Part shown: positions 1,604 to 42,750 of the stretch, piece by piece
How positions within the stretch are numbered: the stretch's first letter is position 1
Layout of the letters: every line of letters begins with the position of its first letter
Source: Halorhabdus tiamatea SARL4B
GTDB taxonomy: Archaea > Halobacteriota > Halobacteria > Halobacteriales > Haloarculaceae
Length of the DNA: 64,000 nucleotides
Reading direction: 5' to 3'
Assembly: GCF_000470655.1 (NCBI RefSeq)
Contig: NC_021921.1
Coordinates: forward strand, 62,001 to 126,000
Program-made: the position numbers and the translations under genes
Notes under the pieces: generated by a model
What the model was told of the DNA's origin: nothing
Database searches by the model: none
Seen by the model: the letters and a program-made list of their open reading frames with translations, nothing else

Positions 1604-4600
1604 ATGAGCGGTCTCACGGAATCTCTCGCAGAACACCTCCCCGACGACTTTGACGAAAAAGTCACAGACCCGGACCACGGCGAAGAAACAGCAGCGAAAA
1701 ACTACGGCGTCCCGATACTGAAAGAACTCGGGTTAGAACACGCAGACTACGAAGAAATCATCGAATCCGGCGACCGTCCAGACTTCGTTTGGGAAGACAA
1801 AGACGGTGTCACACGAATCGTTGGTGAACTCAAGAAACCGTGGGACGAAGAACATAGTGACGATGACCCCCGGTACAAAATCGAGCAAGCGATCAGCGAA
1901 GCCCGCGTCTACAACGACCAACTCCGTCTCAAATACATCCTCGCAACCGACGGGCGGTACATCTTCTTCAGCAACGAATACGAAGACCCGCCAGTAGAAC
2001 TCGAACTCGACCTACTCCAAGTTTTCAACGACCCGGGCGACGACGACGTCGAACAGACCGCAGCGCAACTCAAAACACGTATCACCGGGACGTACGACGG
2101 CGAATGGAACGATGAACCCAGCCAACGCGATATCAGCGACCCGGAGATATTCGAGGAATTCATCGAAGCGTCACGCGCTGCACTCAACGACGACCTACTC
2201 CCGAGCATCGAACGGTTATTCGAAGTATATGAAGACCAGTACGAACAGTTCGAAGAAGAACGAGCGGAGATAGAAACGGAACGCGAAGAACTCCGTGAAC
2301 AGTACCGCGAACACATCGACTGGGGACCGTACAAGGAAGCGATTGACCATGTCGCAGACGATCTGCAATACGATTACGAAGAACACTTGTCCGGTGCTGC
2401 GTCCGGGAATCTTGACGAGGACCGGTGGATTGACGAAGTGGCAGAATTCCGCGAGGAACTACTCGGGCTCCGGAATCAACTGTCCAGTAAAGAAGCGGAG
2501 TACGAGGAAGCCCGTGCATGGCACGACAAGTGGCAGTCGTGGTTAATCCTCACCGGGAAAGACTACGAGTCCGCTAACAAATCGGATAAAGAAGACATCC
2601 GCGAAACGTTCCAGTTGCAGACGCTAAACACGCTGTACAACCGGTTGCTGCTCATCCGGACGTTCGAAGACATGGGGATTATCGGTCAGGTAATTAGTAA
2701 CGGGTTCATCAAATTCTACGACGAAAAAGTCCAACTCCGAGATAACAAGTTCCTCGAACCGTTGAGCACTGCGTCCCGGCAGGCAGAAGAAGTGTACTCC
2801 CCGTTGTTCCGGAGAGACACCCCGCACGACTGGTACCACTACGAAGAAGACGTGCTGAAAACCGTTCTCAGACGGTTTGACAACTTCAACTTCCGGGAGA
2901 TAGATCGGGATATCTTCGGTGAAATGTACCAGCAGTGCTTGGACAGTGAGAAACGAAAACGACTCGGAGCGTACTACACGCCACCGACCGCCGTTGAATT
3001 CCTGCTGGATTACTCGTCATTCACCCCGCACGAACGGAACATCAAACAACGCGACGAACCCGTCCTTGACCCGGCATGCGGCAGCGGAACGTTCGTATTA
3101 GCGGCCATGAGTCGTGTGATTGACGCGTTAAAGGACTCCGGATACGATTTGACACGGGACGACGACTTACTGGACGCGATCGAATTGGTTAACGAGAAAA
3201 TCCGTGGGTTCGACGTTGACCCGTTCGCCATTCAGCTTGCGCAGTCGAACCTCCTCATCCGTGTCCTGCAGGAACGCCGTAGCGCTGGTGACGACGCGCA
3301 CTTGGAACTCCCATCGTTCTCCACGTTCGACACAGACTCGTTGTTAACCGCGAAAGGATCAGAAACCACGAGCATCGACCGGTTCTACAGGGCACGAGAG
3401 GACAACGCAGAAGACTTGGACGAGATCATCGAAGCAAAGCAAGATGATTACACGTGGGTGATTGGTAACCCGCCGTACGTCCGGGCGGAAAACCAGGACC
3501 AGCACCGCATCGACGAATACGAACGTCTGCACGACGTGTTCGGTGAAGACCAAGCGGACATCTTCACAGCGTTCATTGAACAGGGGCTGGACTGGTTAGA
3601 ACCAGGCGGGCAGCTGGCATTCGTTGTCTCGAACGCGTTGTTGGTAACTGACCCGTCGGAACCCGCCATGAAGTACATCCGCGACAACGCGACCATTGAC
3701 CTTGTCGCTGACCTTACACGATGCAAGATATTCGGTATTGACGTCAACACGTTCCCGATCCTCATCGTACTGACGAAACGCGCAGGGGAAGACAACGAAG
3801 ACGTTCGGAAAGAGAACGAAACTGAGGTCGTGAAAGTGTTCCCGAAAGGCTCTGACGGGAACGAATGGGGGTACGCATTAGACCACGCCGCAGCAGACCT
3901 TCTCGATTGGCGTGACGAACCCGACTACGACTTTGAAACGGACTTTGAAAGCGACGAGTACCCCGGAATCACTACGGAAGACACGTACGACCGGTACACC
4001 GTCAGTCAAAACCGGTTCATTGAGGAGTGGAGTGACTGGTCTGACCGCCTCACGTTGAACTTCCAAATCACGGACGAGCTCTGGGGCGTGGCAACAGACT
4101 TGGAAGACGGTGACGAGTGCGTTCCGCTGAACGACCTGTGTAAAATGGACGGTGGTGGGCGCGGTGGACCGGTCTCTCGCGGTGAGGAACCCCGGTTCTT
4201 CCGCCCGTACACGTCCGAAGAGAAAACAGACGACCATGACACGCCTGTCGTCGGTGGGAGGAACCTCGAACAGTTCTACCTGGGTGACGCACCGGGTGAC
4301 GTTGAGGAGTACATCGATCTTGACGCCGTCGAAGCGGACGACGACACTGACGTGTCCAGTAACAAGATGGAAGCGTTCGGGAAAGACAAAATCGCGTACC
4401 GTGAGACCGCCCCGGAACTAACGTTCGTTGTGGACGCAGCGGATGAAGACCCGAAATTCTACAATAAGACGGCGTACTTCCTACAACTGCAGAACGACGG
4501 CGGATTAGCTGAATTCTCCGAATCGAGCGCCGCGCTTGATCCGCACTACATTGCTGGCCTGCTGAACAGTAACCTGCTTGACTTCTATTACAAAGCGTAC

Positions 4601-9911: not shown

Positions 9912-9957
9912 AGGGCGTGTGTCCAGTGCCCCGGGAACAGACACGCCGAATCACGGG

Positions 9958-10197
9958 CTACGGTGGCAGGTCGTCAATCGGGTAGTACTGACAGTCGCAC
10001 GTTAGAATCAAACCGTTCTCATCGGTGTCGTCGTCAAGGACAGTCAAATCCGAACGGTTGGTAAGGATGATAGCACTCCCGCACTCGTCACAGTGGACGG
10101 CGTCGATTCCTTTCCCGATCATCGAGTAAATCACATCGGACACGATTCCATCGAACCGTGGTTCGTTGTTGAGTTCTTCTCTGCTCCCCATCGTCAC
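9958..10197 (-). CDS. Small zinc-finger-like protein
   Basis: About 79 residues (GTG 10197; or ATG 10191, two codons shorter). It has HCDECGSAI in the middle and CDC near the C-terminus, together forming a likely Cys4-type zinc site. The GTG start overlaps the stop of the upstream 44-residue gene by four bases, so translation is probably coupled. Function unknown; such proteins are frequent in haloarchaeal viruses and may bind nucleic acid or partner proteins. Confidence 0.6.
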   Translation of the reverse strand: MTMGSREELNNEPRFDGIVSDVIYSMIGKGIDAVHCDECGSAIILTNRSDLTVLDDDTDENGLILTCDCQYYPIDDLPP

Positions 10198-10328
10198 TCG
10201 TCACCCCCGTTCTCTTCTCCCGTGTCGTTCACGCGGTCGGCGACGGCTTCCCGGGCTCTCTCCAACATCTCCAACTCAAACCTGGATTCAGCTACTTCTT
10301 CTGCAGTTGGTGCATCTCCCATACTCAT
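10194..10328 (-). CDS. Small acidic helical protein
   Basis: Forty-four residues, strongly acidic and helical (EEVAESRFELEMLERAREAV). ATG 10328 directly follows GGTTACTA of the element promoter, so the transcript is probably leaderless. It overlaps the next zinc-finger gene by four bases. No function recognised. Confidence 0.6.
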   Translation of the reverse strand: MSMGDAPTAEEVAESRFELEMLERAREAVADRVNDTGEENGGDE

Positions 10329-10364
10329 TAGTAACCGGTCCCAGGGTTAGAGTGAGAGATACGG
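10329..10364 (-). promoter_or_regulatory. Element-type promoter
   Basis: CCGTATCTCTC, TCTAACCC about 25 bases before ATG 10328, and GGTTACTA abutting the ATG. Confidence 0.6.
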
Positions 10365-10394
10365 CACCTGCAGACACGACACGGCCACCCGTAG

Positions 10395-12943: not shown

Positions 12944-13267
12944 TTACGCCGGCACACGGTCGGGGAAACGGTCGTCCAGCGCCATCGAGACCAGGATACC
13001 CAGCGATTCCGGGACACGGTACCTCTCCATGATCTCCGTCACTGTCCGGCGGCGGCAATGGTGTTCTGCATCTAACTCAACGAGCGTTTGGACAGCGTGC
13101 TCGTGCCATTCCGGATCGCGTGACGGTCGGGCATCCCCGTCGTCGTGCAGCTGGTCATGACACTGTCTGCAGAGCTCTACACCGCGTGGCGCGGCGTACG
13201 TCCAGTGATGGTAGTCCAGCCCCTCATGCTCGCGCGACCGGCACAGCGGGCATGCACGGCGTGTCAC
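12944..13267 (-). CDS. HNH endonuclease-like protein
   Basis: A 107-residue protein with CPLCRSREHEG, the YHHW pair, and CRQCHDQLH, matching the zinc-stabilised HNH nuclease pattern. The start is GTG 13267, overlapping the stop of the cytosine methyltransferase by four bases, so the two are translationally coupled. That pairing suggests a compact type II restriction-modification unit, although phage HNH proteins also act in packaging or homing. The C-terminal 60 residues are helical and may recognise DNA. Confidence 0.7.
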   Translation of the reverse strand: MTRRACPLCRSREHEGLDYHHWTYAAPRGVELCRQCHDQLHDDGDARPSRDPEWHEHAVQTLVELDAEHHCRRRTVTEIMERYRVPESLGILVSMALDDRFPDRVPA

Positions 13268-14043
13268 GACCCCCCACCCCAGTTACTGACCGCGTCGGTG
13301 TGTCCTGGCGTGGTGTGCGCGATTTGCTGCTGTTCCGTCTCACCTTCGACCGCGTCAAGGATTGCTTCCGAGAGCCCGTACGGAACGGCTGCACGTTCGC
13401 CGTACCCGCTTGGCATGGATGCGATTGCCGAGTACCCGTCGTCCTCAGTGTTACTGTTGTGACAGTCCGCGCCCGGACTGCACGACAAGTATTCGAATCC
13501 GGGAGGGTGCTTCCCCCACAGATCGGTCGGTTTCTGATAGTTCATCCCGAATTGGCAGTACGTCACTGTTCCCTCCGGGTCACGGAACGACCATCGGAGA
13601 CGTCCGCGAGGGTTTTCGAGGAACCAGTACTCTGGGTTGAGGGCTTTGATGATGCCGACGGCGTGGTGCGCGAGCGCGATCGCGTCTCGTGCCTCATCAC
13701 TCGTTGGGGTCCCGGCTTCGAAATCCCAGTGGTCGTGATTCCCTGCAGTACTGAATTCCGTGCATGGCGGGGATGCCAAGACGACGTCCGGCTCGGTTGG
13801 TAATCGAGGATCGGACGGTTGGAGTTCGTGAACGTCCGCGACGATATCCGGGTCCAAGTCCGGGTCGATGTCCACCGTCGTCACCTCCCACGCTGGGTGT
13901 TCTTCGAACGCTTGTGAGAACCCGCCGACCCCGGCGAACAAGTCCACGCACTGCTTCTTCTCACCAGCGTCGTTGGTATCCGTGTTACTGACTGAGACAC
14001 GCCCCCCGTCAGTGTTCTGTGCTGTGATTGCGTTCTGTGTCAT
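13264..14043 (-). CDS. DNA cytosine-5 methyltransferase
   Basis: The 259-residue protein carries the C5-methyltransferase signatures: DLFAGVGGF (34-42, AdoMet binding), SPPC (91-94, catalytic Cys94) and ENP (143-145). It is shorter than most C5 enzymes, which leaves little room for a target-recognition domain, as in several phage enzymes. A tRNA-like minihelix ends 16 bases before its start codon. The HNH gene overlaps its 3' end. It is the fifth gene of the operon that starts at 16004. Confidence 0.85.
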   Translation of the reverse strand: MTQNAITAQNTDGGRVSVSNTDTNDAGEKKQCVDLFAGVGGFSQAFEEHPAWEVTTVDIDPDLDPDIVADVHELQPSDPRLPTEPDVVLASPPCTEFSTAGNHDHWDFEAGTPTSDEARDAIALAHHAVGIIKALNPEYWFLENPRGRLRWSFRDPEGTVTYCQFGMNYQKPTDLWGKHPPGFEYLSCSPGADCHNSNTEDDGYSAIASMPSGYGERAAVPYGLSEAILDAVEGETEQQQIAHTTPGHTDAVSNWGGGS

Positions 14044-14059
14044 TGCCGTTTACCTCGAA

Positions 14060-14104
14060 GCACGCCCGGGGAATCGAACCCTCGGTGAAAGCACCAGCAC
14101 GTGC
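14060..14104 (-). ncRNA. tRNA-like minihelix 1 in gene junction
   Basis: Read on the minus strand, GCACGT and GCGTGC form an acceptor-like stem. A GGTG-CTTT-CACC hairpin follows, then a T-arm with loop TTCGATT whose 3' strand runs into the acceptor strand as in tRNA. The two outer T-stem pairs are mismatched. D and anticodon arms are absent, so it is not a normal tRNA. It lies wholly between two genes, 16 bases before the methyltransferase start. Confidence 0.6.
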
Positions 14105-14120
14105 GGACCGACCCGGTGCG

Positions 14121-14558
14121 TTAAATCCCGTCGCGTCCGCGCCAATTCTCCGCGTACACTTCCTCCGTGTCAGTATCCGTGAGCGGTTTGAACTCTCCCT
14201 TGATACCTGCAGCAGATTCGATCACGTCCTCGTACAAGTGCAACACTCCCGGCATCGGGCCCTGAACCATCACGTACCCAGCGAACCCGCCTCTGGACGT
14301 TCTCTCACCGTCCTCCTTGACAGTCACAGAGTCCTCGCAACGCGGGTCTGTGTTCGTCATCAACACGAGCGGGGTGTCGAAGGCGTAGGACACGAACACG
14401 TGGTTGTGCGCTTTCGTGTGATTCGTTCGGCCTTTGTATTCGAGTCCGTTCCGGCGGCACAGTTCTTCGAACGTTGTGGCGTCGCCATAGTCCATGTAGT
14501 GCAATTCCGCTACTGCATCCCCGGTGTCCGTGCTCACGTCGTCTGTTGTTGCTACCAT
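14121..14558 (-). CDS. Hypothetical protein in tRNA-like-punctuated operon
   Basis: A 145-residue protein, not recognised. The first residues MVATTDD are nearly the same as those of two other genes in this operon (MVATQTG, MVATTDA), showing that the 5' regions share origin although the bodies differ. The body contains FEELCRRNGLEYKGRTN and a beta-rich FVSYAFDTPLVLMTN stretch. No membrane segment is seen. It is flanked on both sides by tRNA-like minihelices. Confidence 0.65.
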   Translation of the reverse strand: MVATTDDVSTDTGDAVAELHYMDYGDATTFEELCRRNGLEYKGRTNHTKAHNHVFVSYAFDTPLVLMTNTDPRCEDSVTVKEDGERTSRGGFAGYVMVQGPMPGVLHLYEDVIESAAGIKGEFKPLTDTDTEEVYAENWRGRDGI

Positions 14559-14568
14559 TGTCTTTCAA

Positions 14569-14615
14569 GCACGTCCAGAGGGAATCGAACCCTCGGTGAA
14601 AGCACCAGCACGCGC
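14569..14615 (-). ncRNA. tRNA-like minihelix 2 in gene junction
   Basis: This is the closest relative of minihelix 1. The T-arm GAGGG-TTCGATT-CCCTC is perfect. The acceptor-like stem is GCGCGT/ACGTGC: relative to copy 1 the third and sixth pairs change (A-U to G-U, and U-G to U-A) while pairing is kept. The GGTG-CTTT-CACC hairpin is identical. It ends 10 bases before ATG 14558. Confidence 0.65.
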
Positions 14616-14643
14616 AACCACACCACACCGCTCCGTGTTCGTG

Positions 14644-15048
14644 TTAGTCAGCTCCCGAGCGGATGTCCGGTTCAACCTCGAACCAGAAACACCCATCCAC
14701 GACCCGGTCCGGGTGCGCCCAGGCATCTTTCTCAACCACGTCCAAGTCACGCACATCAACCCCGTCCATCCGAACGCCTGTTTTGTTCTGCAGGTGGACA
14801 GTGTGCCATGGTCCTGTAGAGTCCACTCCCCACTCTTCACCCTGGTACTCCACGATATCCCCTACCTCAACGCCCGACTCGCGGATGATGCGCAGGCTTT
14901 TCGCCGTGTTGTCATCCCGATTCTCCAATTCCTTGCACGAGTTGCACTTCGGGTCGTCCGGGATCTGGTCCACAGGGACGCTCATCCCGCTCTCGCAGTA
15001 GTTACAGAACAGTACCGTGTGTTTCTCGCCGGTCTGTGTTGCTACCAT
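14644..15048 (-). CDS. Zinc-ribbon and SH3-like hypothetical protein
   Basis: A 134-residue protein with an N-terminal Cys4 ribbon (CNYC and CNSC, about 15-38), a charged linker, and a beta-barrel-like region (GVEVGDIVEYQGEEWGVDS) resembling KOW or SH3 modules. This may bind nucleic acid. Its N-terminus MVATQTG matches its operon neighbours. A tRNA-like minihelix lies both upstream and downstream. Confidence 0.65.
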   Translation of the reverse strand: MVATQTGEKHTVLFCNYCESGMSVPVDQIPDDPKCNSCKELENRDDNTAKSLRIIRESGVEVGDIVEYQGEEWGVDSTGPWHTVHLQNKTGVRMDGVDVRDLDVVEKDAWAHPDRVVDGCFWFEVEPDIRSGAD

Positions 15049-15059
15049 TGTCCTTCACG

Positions 15060-15104
15060 ACCACCCCAGGAATTCGATTCCCGGCATCACACCGTAGAGG
15101 TGGC
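15060..15104 (-). ncRNA. tRNA-like minihelix 3 in gene junction
   Basis: The acceptor-like stem is GCCACCT/GGGTGGT (seven pairs, two of them G-U). It abuts a T-arm CGGGA-ATCGAAT-TCCTG exactly as acceptor and T stems stack in tRNA. The primary sequence differs from copies 1 and 2, so the fold, not the sequence, is conserved. The internal arm is weak. It ends 11 bases before ATG 15048. Confidence 0.6.
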
Positions 15105-15125
15105 TCAACCGCCGGCGTGTCTGTG

Positions 15126-15515
15126 TTACTGGATTACACTGACCGTCACGTCGTCGTCCTCACGCTGCACGTACACCGCGCGAGGATACCCGTCAACGGC
15201 CAGGCCTTCGAGCGCGTCCTCCCAGTCCACCACGTCAACGTCCACAACACTGCCGTCCGCGCTGATCGTTACTGACCCGCCGTCACCGTGCACGTCACAC
15301 GACGCCCGTACATCGGGCCGGTCGAGCGACTCGTTCAACTCGCTTTCAATGTCTGCAACGACCCCTTGCAACGCGGTCTGCACAGTGTCTGCAAGTTCTG
15401 CAGGGGACGTGTTCGTCCCCACATTCCACGTGTTCTCTGCGTCGTCGTGGAACACGCTGAGTTCCACTGTGACTGTCTCTGCTTCCGTGCCGGCTGCGTC
15501 TGTTGTTGCTACCAT
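15126..15515 (-). CDS. Hypothetical protein in tRNA-like-punctuated operon
   Basis: A 129-residue acidic protein, not recognised. It begins MVATTDA like its operon neighbours. The first half is helical (PAELADTVQTALQGVVADIESEL). The second half alternates short strands (SVTISADGSVVDVDVVDW, then a YVQREDDDVTVSVI end). It has no cysteines in clusters and no membrane helix. Confidence 0.6.
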   Translation of the reverse strand: MVATTDAAGTEAETVTVELSVFHDDAENTWNVGTNTSPAELADTVQTALQGVVADIESELNESLDRPDVRASCDVHGDGGSVTISADGSVVDVDVVDWEDALEGLAVDGYPRAVYVQREDDDVTVSVIQ

Positions 15516-15520
15516 CGCAT

Positions 15521-15581
15521 GCCCGTCCGGGGAATCGAACCCCGACGTTAGCCTACCAAGGACAGGTTAGAACCGACGGAC
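15521..15581 (-). ncRNA. tRNA-like minihelix 4 in gene junction
   Basis: This has the best acceptor-T architecture: seven-pair stem GTCCGTC/GACGGGC, abutting a perfect T-arm CGGGG-TTCGATT-CCCCG. One longer hairpin (TAACCTGTC / GGTAGGCTA, one mismatch) replaces the D and anticodon arms. Its 5' strand overlaps the last codons of the upstream gene, and its 3' strand ends five bases before ATG 15515. Confidence 0.65.
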
Positions 15582-16004
15582 GACGACTGCCGTCGTAGCG
15601 TGCCACGAGTCACCAGTCACGTCCTTCGCGTACGTGTCATGAGCGTCGCGTGCTGCCACGAACAAACGCTCAGACCTGTCGAACCCAGCAGCACCAGCAA
15701 GCGTTCGGAACGCCGTGTCGTTCAGGATGAGCGCTTCATCCTCCGTCAGCGCAACGTGCGTGTCCTGCTGGTCCATGTACAATTCCAGGTTATCCATCCG
15801 AGCTTCGTGCGTGTCCGGCAGCGCCGCGTCAATCGCGTTCAACACACCGTGTAACCGCTCCGTATTCACGTTGTGATACCGCGCGACCGTCTCCACGTTC
15901 TCGACCGGAATCGCGTGAGCGATCTCGTCCTCGAACATCACGGGGAGCGCGTCGTAGTTCATGTCCTGTGCACCGTCGTCGCCTGCCTGGGTTGCTCGTG
16001 CCAT
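15567..16004 (-). CDS. First gene of the tRNA-like-punctuated operon, hypothetical
   Basis: A 145-residue acidic helical protein of unknown function, starting at ATG 16004 (the frame is open to 16022, but this ATG follows the promoter's GTAGTAAG). It resembles the 11094-11504 protein in size, acidity and promoter, though not clearly in sequence. Its last four codons form part of tRNA-like minihelix 4, so processing there could trim its message end. Confidence 0.65.
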   Translation of the reverse strand: MARATQAGDDGAQDMNYDALPVMFEDEIAHAIPVENVETVARYHNVNTERLHGVLNAIDAALPDTHEARMDNLELYMDQQDTHVALTEDEALILNDTAFRTLAGAAGFDRSERLFVAARDAHDTYAKDVTGDSWHATTAVVVRRF

Positions 16005-16062
16005 CTTACTACACCTACACATACCCCCGCGGCACTAATAAACGTTTGCCGTCACACAATCA
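16005..16062 (-). promoter_or_regulatory. Promoter of the tRNA-like-punctuated operon
   Basis: GACGGCAAACGTTTATTAG and GTAGTAAG before ATG 16004, a near duplicate of the promoter at 11505-11566. Confidence 0.65.
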
Positions 16063-34930: not shown

Positions 34931-35581
34931 ATGAGTCTCGTGTGTGATTTTACGCTCGGCGGGGACGCTCTCCCGTTAACCGATGTGGCAGCCACAGTTT
35001 CGGGGACCGTCCATGTCGAACGTGTGATTGCAGATCGACCACACAATCCACATATCATCGTCACGGGGGAAGGCATTTCACCGAAACATCTTGAGACGGC
35101 AATGGCAAACGGAACACGAGTCCGTGACGTTGTCCGCTTGGAATCGTCGTTCGAAGCGACGCGTTTCCGCATCACGATTGACCAACCTGTCCCTGCTGTA
35201 TACGAACGGTTAGTTTCATTACGGACCTACCCCGAAGGAGCGACGATAACTGAAACAGGATGGCGGACGCGCGTCCAATTCGCCACGCGAGACGATCTGC
35301 TGTCTTTTCGGAACACCTGCCAGGAAATGAGCGTCAAGTTTCACCTGCACCGACTATTCCAGTCGGATTCTGATGATATCGACGAGTACGGATTGACAGC
35401 ACAACAGCACAACGCCCTAGCAGTAGCCTACGACGAGGGGTACTTCGAGATTCCTCGGGAGGCCACGCTTGAGGATCTTGCTGACGAACTCGACACCACG
35501 ACCTCCGCACTGTCGGAATTATTGCGTCGTGGCCAGCGTCGTCTAGTGGGCCGAACAGTCGCTGCGCTGGAAGGGACCTAA
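34931..35581 (+). CDS. Bacterio-opsin activator-type HTH regulator
   Basis: A 216-residue protein with the N-terminal beta-rich sensor-like half and the C-terminal HTH-10 domain common to haloarchaeal Bat-like regulators (LTAQQHNALAVAYDEGYFEI, then LEDLADELDTTTSALSELLRRGQRRL). It follows the oleate hydratase gene by 40 bases and may control it. A deleted relative of this gene survives at 32889-33045. Confidence 0.8.
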   Translation: MSLVCDFTLGGDALPLTDVAATVSGTVHVERVIADRPHNPHIIVTGEGISPKHLETAMANGTRVRDVVRLESSFEATRFRITIDQPVPAVYERLVSLRTYPEGATITETGWRTRVQFATRDDLLSFRNTCQEMSVKFHLHRLFQSDSDDIDEYGLTAQQHNALAVAYDEGYFEIPREATLEDLADELDTTTSALSELLRRGQRRLVGRTVAALEGT

Positions 35582-41587: not shown

Positions 41588-42750
41588 TGCGTACCCTCCG
41601 CGTGATAGACTGGGTCCCCGGCGACGAACGCACGGACCACTGTCGGCGTCGGTTCCTCGTCGACCACCACGAGATCAGCCCGGGCATCTTCGACAATCCG
41701 CCCTCTATCGGTCAGTCCAACGGCTTCGGCCGGGTTCTTCGTGACGCGGGCGACTCGTGTCGGGAGCGATTCGCCTGTGTCCACAAACGGCGCCGCCAAG
41801 AGCGACATCGGGTAGTAATCTGCGACCAATGCGTCGACAGCGCCGGCCTCTATCGTATCAGCTGTTCGAAGGTTCCCCCACTGGCTCTCGCCACGGACGA
41901 GATTCGGTGCCCCCATTGTGACAGTCATGCCGATGTCGTGGGCTCGCTGTGCGGTCTCGAGCGTGATCGGGTACTCACTTATGTCGACACCGACATCGGC
42001 GAGGTGTTCGACCTCACCGGTATTTTCGTCGTCGTGTGAGGCTACGGGAATATTGTGATGGGTGGCCGTCGAGACGATATCGGTCACTCGGTCGCGTATC
42101 GTCTCGATATTCGGTCGCTGTCGCCGCTGAATTATGCTTTCTATCTCCTCGACCGAGTGATCGCGTGTGCCCTGGTAGTACTGACGAAACGCCTCCTCGT
42201 CCTCGAACTGTCCTTTTCCTGGCACGTGGCTCATCACCGAGACGAGGCTCACCGTTTCGTCGTTGATGACAGCGGTCACCGCGTCGACTGACTCCTCCTG
42301 CGTTACTTCACACCGGGCGTGGATTCGGTGATCGGCGATGAGGTCGTCGGAGTCTCGGACGGCAGCCGTGATTTCTGACGCTATTTCGGGTGACCGATCG
42401 GCCTCGTGATCGACCTCGAACGAAATCGCGTGGAACTTCGTCGTGATTCCGGCGGCGACATTCGCGCGATCACTTCCAGCCAGGGCGAGCCCCGTGTCCA
42501 TACGTGCCCCTGACCGCGGATACAGTTCGGTCTCGATGTCGTCACCGTGGAGGTCGATCAGTCCGGGGAGTACCAAACACCCTTCGGCGTCGATACGCTG
42601 GTCCGCCTGACGGTCGACGTCCCCGATGCCGGCGAGGCGGTCACCCTCGATTCGGACAGCCCCTTCGATGACATCAGTGGGCGTAACGATGCGGGCGTTT
42701 TCGATGACCGTCGTCGCGGTCGAGACTTGCTCGTCGTACTGGCTACTCAT
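41584..42750 (-). CDS. phnM: PhnM, alpha-D-ribose 1-methylphosphonate 5-triphosphate diphosphatase
   Basis: A 388-residue amidohydrolase. DLHGDDIE holds the metal ligands near the N-terminus; HDDENT and the conserved YPITLE...MGAPNLVRG segment fit PhnM. It removes pyrophosphate from the triphosphate intermediate of the C-P lyase pathway. Both ends overlap neighbours by four bases, so the operon is tightly coupled. Confidence 0.9.
   Translation of the reverse strand: MSSQYDEQVSTATTVIENARIVTPTDVIEGAVRIEGDRLAGIGDVDRQADQRIDAEGCLVLPGLIDLHGDDIETELYPRSGARMDTGLALAGSDRANVAAGITTKFHAISFEVDHEADRSPEIASEITAAVRDSDDLIADHRIHARCEVTQEESVDAVTAVINDETVSLVSVMSHVPGKGQFEDEEAFRQYYQGTRDHSVEEIESIIQRRQRPNIETIRDRVTDIVSTATHHNIPVASHDDENTGEVEHLADVGVDISEYPITLETAQRAHDIGMTVTMGAPNLVRGESQWGNLRTADTIEAGAVDALVADYYPMSLLAAPFVDTGESLPTRVARVTKNPAEAVGLTDRGRIVEDARADLVVVDEEPTPTVVRAFVAGDPVYHAEGTQ

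Follow-up and report, generated by a model that had tools for sequence, protein, structure and literature searches.

The locus raises the question of whether tRNA-like folds at the gene junctions of a haloarchaeal operon act as cut sites that separate its messages. The window, as the term is used here, is the whole 64-kb stretch of Halorhabdus tiamatea DNA that was analysed. The operon occupies positions 13264-16004 on its minus strand; gene A, with its ATG at 16004, comes first and gene E last. A first-pass annotation had placed a T arm joined to an acceptor-like stem at each junction, and such an acceptor/T-arm minihelix of 45-47 nt was indeed found at all four (A/B, B/C, C/D and D/E), on the minus strand. 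The features are listed below in the direction of transcription.

16035..16042, minus strand: probable operon promoter, TATA-like TTTATTAG within the GGCAAACGTTTATTAG motif
15567..16004, minus strand: gene A, ORF, the first gene of the operon, unknown function
15521..15567, minus strand: minihelix copy 4 (A/B junction), acceptor CCUGUC/GACGGG, GG linker, T arm CGGGG-TTCGATT-CCCCG
15126..15515, minus strand: gene B, ORF starting MVATT, unknown function
15060..15104, minus strand: minihelix copy 3 (B/C junction), atypical loop ATCGAAT
14644..15048, minus strand: gene C, ORF starting MVATQ, four CxxC cysteines
14569..14615, minus strand: minihelix copy 2 (C/D junction), acceptor GCGCGT/ACGTGC, T arm GAGGG-TTCGATT-CCCTC
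14121..14558, minus strand: gene D, unknown function
14060..14104, minus strand: minihelix copy 1 (D/E junction), acceptor GCACGT/GCGTGC, loop TTCGATT
13264..14043, minus strand: gene E, C5-cytosine DNA methyltransferase (PF00145, 1.5e-11; phrog_757, 5.5e-31)

Genes A and B had no Pfam match above the cut-off. Domain searches with gene C gave weak matches only, and its four CxxC cysteines possibly form a zinc ribbon. Relatives of genes A, C and D were absent from the phage set, those of gene A also from the plasmid set, and those of genes A, D and E from IMG/VR. The sole match to the DNA of the whole operon was the methyltransferase of HFTV1. Distant homologues of gene D occur in a few haloarchaea, and the minihelix is absent there. 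We noticed that an identical sequence, ATGGTAGCAAC (MVAT), opens unrelated genes in the window (14548-14558, 15038-15048 and 15505-15515), at locus L134 (789-799 and 1531-1541) and in Natrinema thermotolerans, as if these 5′ ends were modular.

Structure of the four minihelices

The loops are as first described, TTCGATT in three copies and ATCGAAT in the fourth. Within the 64-kb window there are exactly three mismatch-free occurrences of GGTTCGANTCC, all of them in the operon and on the operon strand. The D and anticodon arms are missing from all four copies, as claimed, and a short GG-bearing linker takes the place of both. From the 3′ acceptor strand to the next ATG there are 16, 10, 11 and 5 nt in copies 1, 2, 3 and 4, which is the range of 5-16 nt given earlier. 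The distance from the upstream stop codon to the element is −1, 21, 28 and 16 nt at the A/B, B/C, C/D and D/E junctions, respectively.

The overlap of copy 4 with the upstream coding end, raised as a caveat by the first-pass annotation, depends on the 5′ acceptor strand chosen. An alternative 7-bp strand, GTCCGTC, extends into gene A, and the overlap mostly disappears with the nearer strand CCUGUC, which begins at the stop codon and is the one selected by the covariance models. Copy 3 reads GCCACCT-CTACGGTGTGATGC-CGGGA-ATCGAAT-TCCTG-GGGTGGT; its loop lacks T54, and the copy is divergent and may be a weak element. Copies 1 and 2 form a recent pair that agrees at 90% over 49 nt. It had been claimed that they keep pairing through changed base pairs. 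The pairing is kept, but the acceptor changes are one-sided (A-U/G-U and U-G/U-A). Copy 1, moreover, has an imperfect T stem of only 3 pairs, or of 6 with a bulged A. For these reasons the two copies alone are weak evidence of covariation; the real signal lies in the orthologues and in the wider family described below.

When a perfect 5-bp T stem, a perfect 6-7-bp acceptor, a linker of 10-35 nt and an ATG within 18 nt were all required, the operon contained 2 matches. The expectation for 2.9 kb of Markov-shuffled sequence was 0.015, and none of 1500 shuffles reached 2. Lax pattern searches gave many chance matches within the window. The thermodynamic z-scores were modest, from −0.6 to −2.4 for the copies and −1.1 for the 5S t-element.

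A related operon in Natrinema thermotolerans

A search of 391 haloarchaeal genomes with a pattern of a T arm joined to ATGGTNGCNAC led to contig 42 of N. thermotolerans. On that contig, genes A and E enclose a middle gene that differs from those of the window operon. The gene A protein is 85% identical to that of the window, the gene E homologue (86% identical) sits behind a minihelix, and the promoter region is common to both operons. As the GGCAAACGTTTATTAG motif precedes gene A in both, the inner genes probably rely on read-through.

Minihelices are present at both equivalent junctions, so that related operons do carry such elements, as the first-pass annotation would have it. The first reads GCCCGGT-CTCTGGTGAGGGTAA-CGCGG-TTCGATC-CCGCG-ACCGGGT, and the second, the orthologue of copy 3, reads ACTGCCT-CTACGGCGTGATGC-CGGCG-CTCGAAC-CGCTG-GGGTGGT. 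Between copy 3 and this orthologue there are two compensatory changes in the T stem (A-U to G-C and G-C to C-G) and three acceptor positions altered one-sidedly with pairing retained, while the linker is nearly unchanged. A third element is located 3.3 kb downstream.

A family of elements across the haloarchaea

Two covariance models were used. R1 was built from six sequences, copy 3 among them; to bring these into alignment, linkers were padded or shortened and copy 2 was entered without two of its bases. R2 was built from 49 natural elements alone, excluding those of the window, of Natrinema and of the 5S rRNA genes. Copy 1 was outside the training of both models and was found by both; copy 4 was outside that of R2. 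With R1, 218 of the 391 haloarchaeal genomes were matched at E≤1. The surroundings of 130 distinct top matches were read, 40 of them adjoining a 5S rRNA gene and 90 not.

The 90 non-5S elements lie mainly between co-directional genes. By an ORF rule (one ORF ending at most 150 nt upstream and another starting at most 60 nt downstream, each of at least 70 codons, the upstream one measured from stop to stop), 58 were intercistronic, compared with 11 of 90 in the antisense control (paired sign test 50/53, p = 5.5e-12). An ARAGORN tRNA call overlapped 4 of the 90. Candidate processing elements at successive junctions, found at four of four here, also follow one another in groups of two or three on the same strand in Natrinema and at twelve other loci. 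In three-gene DUF1102-type operons (L310, L319) there is one element per junction, and further multi-element operons are those at L308, L358 and L394. The downstream genes are diverse (DUF1102, camelysin-like, PolB, methyltransferase and phage genes), and for this reason a role in regulating a single gene family was rejected. A BLAST search of plasmids with one DUF1102 element returned nothing. In one haloarchaeal genus (L282-L292, L328, L329, L393) each genome has several near-identical copies; they precede a gene for a coiled-coil protein that starts MPRQT, and this gene may belong to a multi-copy plasmid or mobile element.

The fold of the 49 natural elements covaries. In an alignment fitted to the model, which as such leans towards the model structure, 92% of the cells were paired and double changes were present at 10 of 12 pairs; the covariation score of the same alignment was 0.535, compared with 0.169 for shuffles and at most 0.112 for slid controls.

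R2 recovered copies 4, 1 and 2 (44.6, 36.3 and 30.4 bits), the Natrinema elements other than the orthologue of copy 3, and all 5S elements offered, none of which was in its training. Neither copy 3 nor that orthologue was recovered by R2; R1, with copy 3 in its training set, does recognise this copy. Across the entire 3.1-Mb genome of the window's own strain, R2 gave only four matches at E≤1, namely copies 4, 1 and 2 and the 5S t-element. In 34 genomes from other classes of this phylum than Halobacteria, the places examined were 3′ halves of tRNA-Gln and tRNA-Arg, plus two that were unlike the elements; outside the class R2 finds essentially only ordinary tRNAs.

The linker carries GG(T/C) 2-4 nt after the acceptor nearly always. 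GG is present in all four copies and in all 40 sampled 5S elements, an enrichment among matches that is partly circular, as GG was partly built into the training of R1. Its place fits that of the D-loop GG, which docks on the T loop. Two layouts were seen downstream. In the window operon the element is followed by a short spacer and the ATG; in the other layout, seen in HF2 among others, a GC hairpin stands between element and ATG, beginning within 8 nt of the predicted cut in 54 of 88 cases compared with 16 expected, as if it capped the predicted new 5′ end. The expectation of nearly leaderless mRNAs suits the window operon, where 4-15 nt would remain past the expected cut, but not for many relatives, where 20-35 nt with a GC hairpin would remain.

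The 5S rRNA t-element

A t-element upstream of the 5S rRNA of Haloferax volcanii was reportedly described by Hoelzle and co-workers in 2008 and 2012. Cutting of this element by tRNase Z makes the 5′ end of the 5S rRNA, and paired t-elements, acted on by RNase P and tRNase Z, have served to free a crRNA in vivo (PMC4326828, PMC3296008, PMC4946936). The 5S rRNA in the genome studied here is preceded by ACCGATC-GCTGGCCTCG-CGTGG-TTCGATT-CCACG-GATCGGC-GT, and the crRNA-construct primer ACCGATATTGGTATGGCAACC, which apparently begins at the t-element, is close to the start of a 5S element found in this analysis, ACCGATATTGGTATCACAACGG.

The resemblance is extensive. Both kinds have an acceptor stem, a short GG linker and a TTCGAUU T arm and lack D and anticodon arms, and the same covariance model matches both. 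The 6-7-bp acceptor stacked on a 5-bp T arm with a 7-nt T loop is found in the operon too, with the imperfect T stem of copy 1 as noted. Each immediately precedes the RNA that it would set free, the 5S elements adjoining the 5S rRNA and the window copies standing 5-16 nt before an ATG. The operon elements differ in that they would release protein-coding cistrons, up to four per operon, and are diverse in sequence. The evidence thus supports placing the operon minihelices in one structural class with the 5S t-element, for which cutting by haloarchaeal tRNase Z has been published, and the idea of processing is well founded because of this shared class. Since the elements match the signal that is cut before 5S rRNA, they probably mark sites at which messages are cut.

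Haloviruses and chromosomal loci

The first-pass annotation saw tRNA punctuation in a mobile element. This was too narrow, as the class is also found in chromosomal operons and in known haloviruses. Unannotated intercistronic elements were detected with R2 in HF2 (2905-2945 and 4375-4414), in HFTV1 (35057-35097, before PCNA) and in HCTV-2 (42520-42560). Pattern scans of IMG/VR gave mostly ordinary tRNAs and chance matches.

In HF2, a 5′ end at T-4384 was interpreted as a promoter start, and processing of long transcripts has already been proposed (PMC8707807). T-4384 falls inside the element at 4375-4414 (L408), at its position 10 and not at the 3′ edge. Transcripts starting there would lack the 5′ acceptor strand, and only read-through RNA could therefore be processed. 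The class I and II intergenic repeats of HF2 (PMC8707807) resemble the present elements in being repeated between haloarchaeal virus genes, but they are AT-rich promoter elements, unlike the HF2 t-elements. An interpretation of the minihelices as promoter repeats was rejected on account of this AT-richness.

Three further loci were seen. In HGTV-1 (NC_021328, 45441-46774) co-directional protein genes have true tRNA genes between them, possibly a case of punctuation by real tRNAs. On the chromosome of the strain studied here, C2:995010-995387 (L033, about 9923-10390, minus strand) holds, one after another, tRNA-Ser (GCT), a tRNA-like gene of 73 nt to which no anticodon was assigned, and another tRNA-like piece. 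At C2:534436-534619 (L034) on the same chromosome the 3′ end of a tRNA-Gln is present once more behind the gene, an arrangement resembling an integration scar.

Interpretation

We consider it probable that the four elements are intercistronic t-elements at which the operon is split into single-gene mRNAs by tRNase Z and, probably, RNase P. The sequence of events may be depicted as follows. Each element would fold in the polycistronic transcript as the top half of a tRNA, a 6-7-bp acceptor stem stacked on the T arm, with GG(U/C) of the linker standing in for the D-loop GG. The host tRNase Z would cut right after the 3′ acceptor strand, so that the following cistron would keep some 4-15 nt of leader, and RNase P would probably cut on the 5′ side, beside the upstream stop codon. 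The operon transcript would thereby be split into single-gene mRNAs, with a putative benefit for translation or stability. The same device would serve other haloarchaeal operons and viruses, the same structure maturing 5S rRNA. The HF2 5′ end inside an element and the atypical copy 3, missed by R2, count against this reading, as do the H. volcanii elements reportedly left uncut in vitro that are taken up below. With slightly less assurance, and only a little above even chances, we extend this to tRNA punctuation throughout the haloarchaea and their viruses, in which tRNase Z and RNase P would cut at the 5S-type signal and release single-gene mRNAs, some of them hairpin-capped.

An uncut role is the best surviving alternative and in our judgement an unlikely one. 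The minihelices would then be structured intercistronic RNAs acting in cis, as stability barriers, as translation insulators or enhancers, or as sites for tRNA-binding proteins. Strong structural conservation beside start codons needs no cleavage, and the extra hairpin is often present. Moreover, Hoelzle and co-workers are said to have found, in 2012, 47 further tRNA-like elements in H. volcanii, of which the selected ones that they tested remained uncut in vitro. On the other hand, the conserved features of the fold (acceptor stacked on T arm, T loop, elbow GG) are just those that tRNA end-processing enzymes recognise, the fold is common to the 5S element, whose function is cleavage, and the genes downstream are unrelated to one another.

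It is improbable that the elements are primarily boundary repeats for recombination, with gene cassettes of mobile elements shuffled at a joint made of element and ATGGTAGCAAC. Most elements are unlike in sequence and keep their pairing by compensatory changes, which DNA homology does not need. This reading draws on the common 5′ end ATGGTAGCAAC of unrelated genes, on the intervening genes that differ between the two operons, and on the Natrinema element before gene E, which resembles the window element before gene C rather than that before gene E; such reuse as joints can be a by-product.

An origin as decayed or captured tRNA gene ends (remnants of attachment sites), or as degenerate real tRNAs, is very improbable. 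Haloviruses carry such sequences, an example being the attP tRNA-like gene of HF2 (PMC8707807), and ARAGORN names copy 4 a tRNA-Pyl. This call was rejected, as the Rfam tRNA family RF00005 matched no copy at the gathering cut-off, nor at E≤10 across the operon. Captured host tRNA ends were rejected as well, since a DNA search of the whole genome with copy 1 returned copies 1 and 2 only and no host tRNA. The compensatory changes argue for selection, and the position is the same at every junction.

Chance pairing around a few TTCGATT words, for which the abundant lax matches and modest z-scores might be cited, can practically be discounted, being refuted by the shuffle control and the independent recovery with R2, by the restriction of GGTTCGANTCC to the operon within the window, by the excess of intercistronic over antisense positions and by the four R2 matches in the strain's own genome.

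If cleavage as proposed is true, mRNA punctuation by tRNA mimics would be a regular expression device of a whole archaeal class and its viruses. Short mRNAs from long haloviral and operon transcripts would be explained, tRNase Z and RNase P would gain a role in mRNA metabolism, and unannotated elements could be found with one covariance model.

Comparison with known systems

The fold and the enzymes are already known. A literature search, whose scope left two key t-element papers outside, brought up no account of regular intercistronic use throughout haloarchaeal operons and viruses. Punctuation of mRNA by tRNA mimics is best known from organelles, and in mitochondrial transcripts it is mostly functional tRNAs that serve. 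Between mitochondrial cistrons, tRNA and tRNA-like folds are excised by RNase P and RNase Z (PMC8437803). The operon elements resemble this arrangement, and the t-elements of plant mitochondria, in that tRNA or tRNA-like folds stand between cistrons; they differ in being minimal folds, in an archaeal genome and in viruses. A tRNA-like top half is likewise cut by RNase P and RNase Z in the mascRNA and menRNA of MALAT1 and NEAT1. The mascRNA model RF01684 matches copy 4 weakly and without significance (20.4 bits, gathering cut-off 42.5, E 0.72), and mascRNA and menRNA differ from the present elements in belonging to the 3′ ends of eukaryotic lncRNAs.
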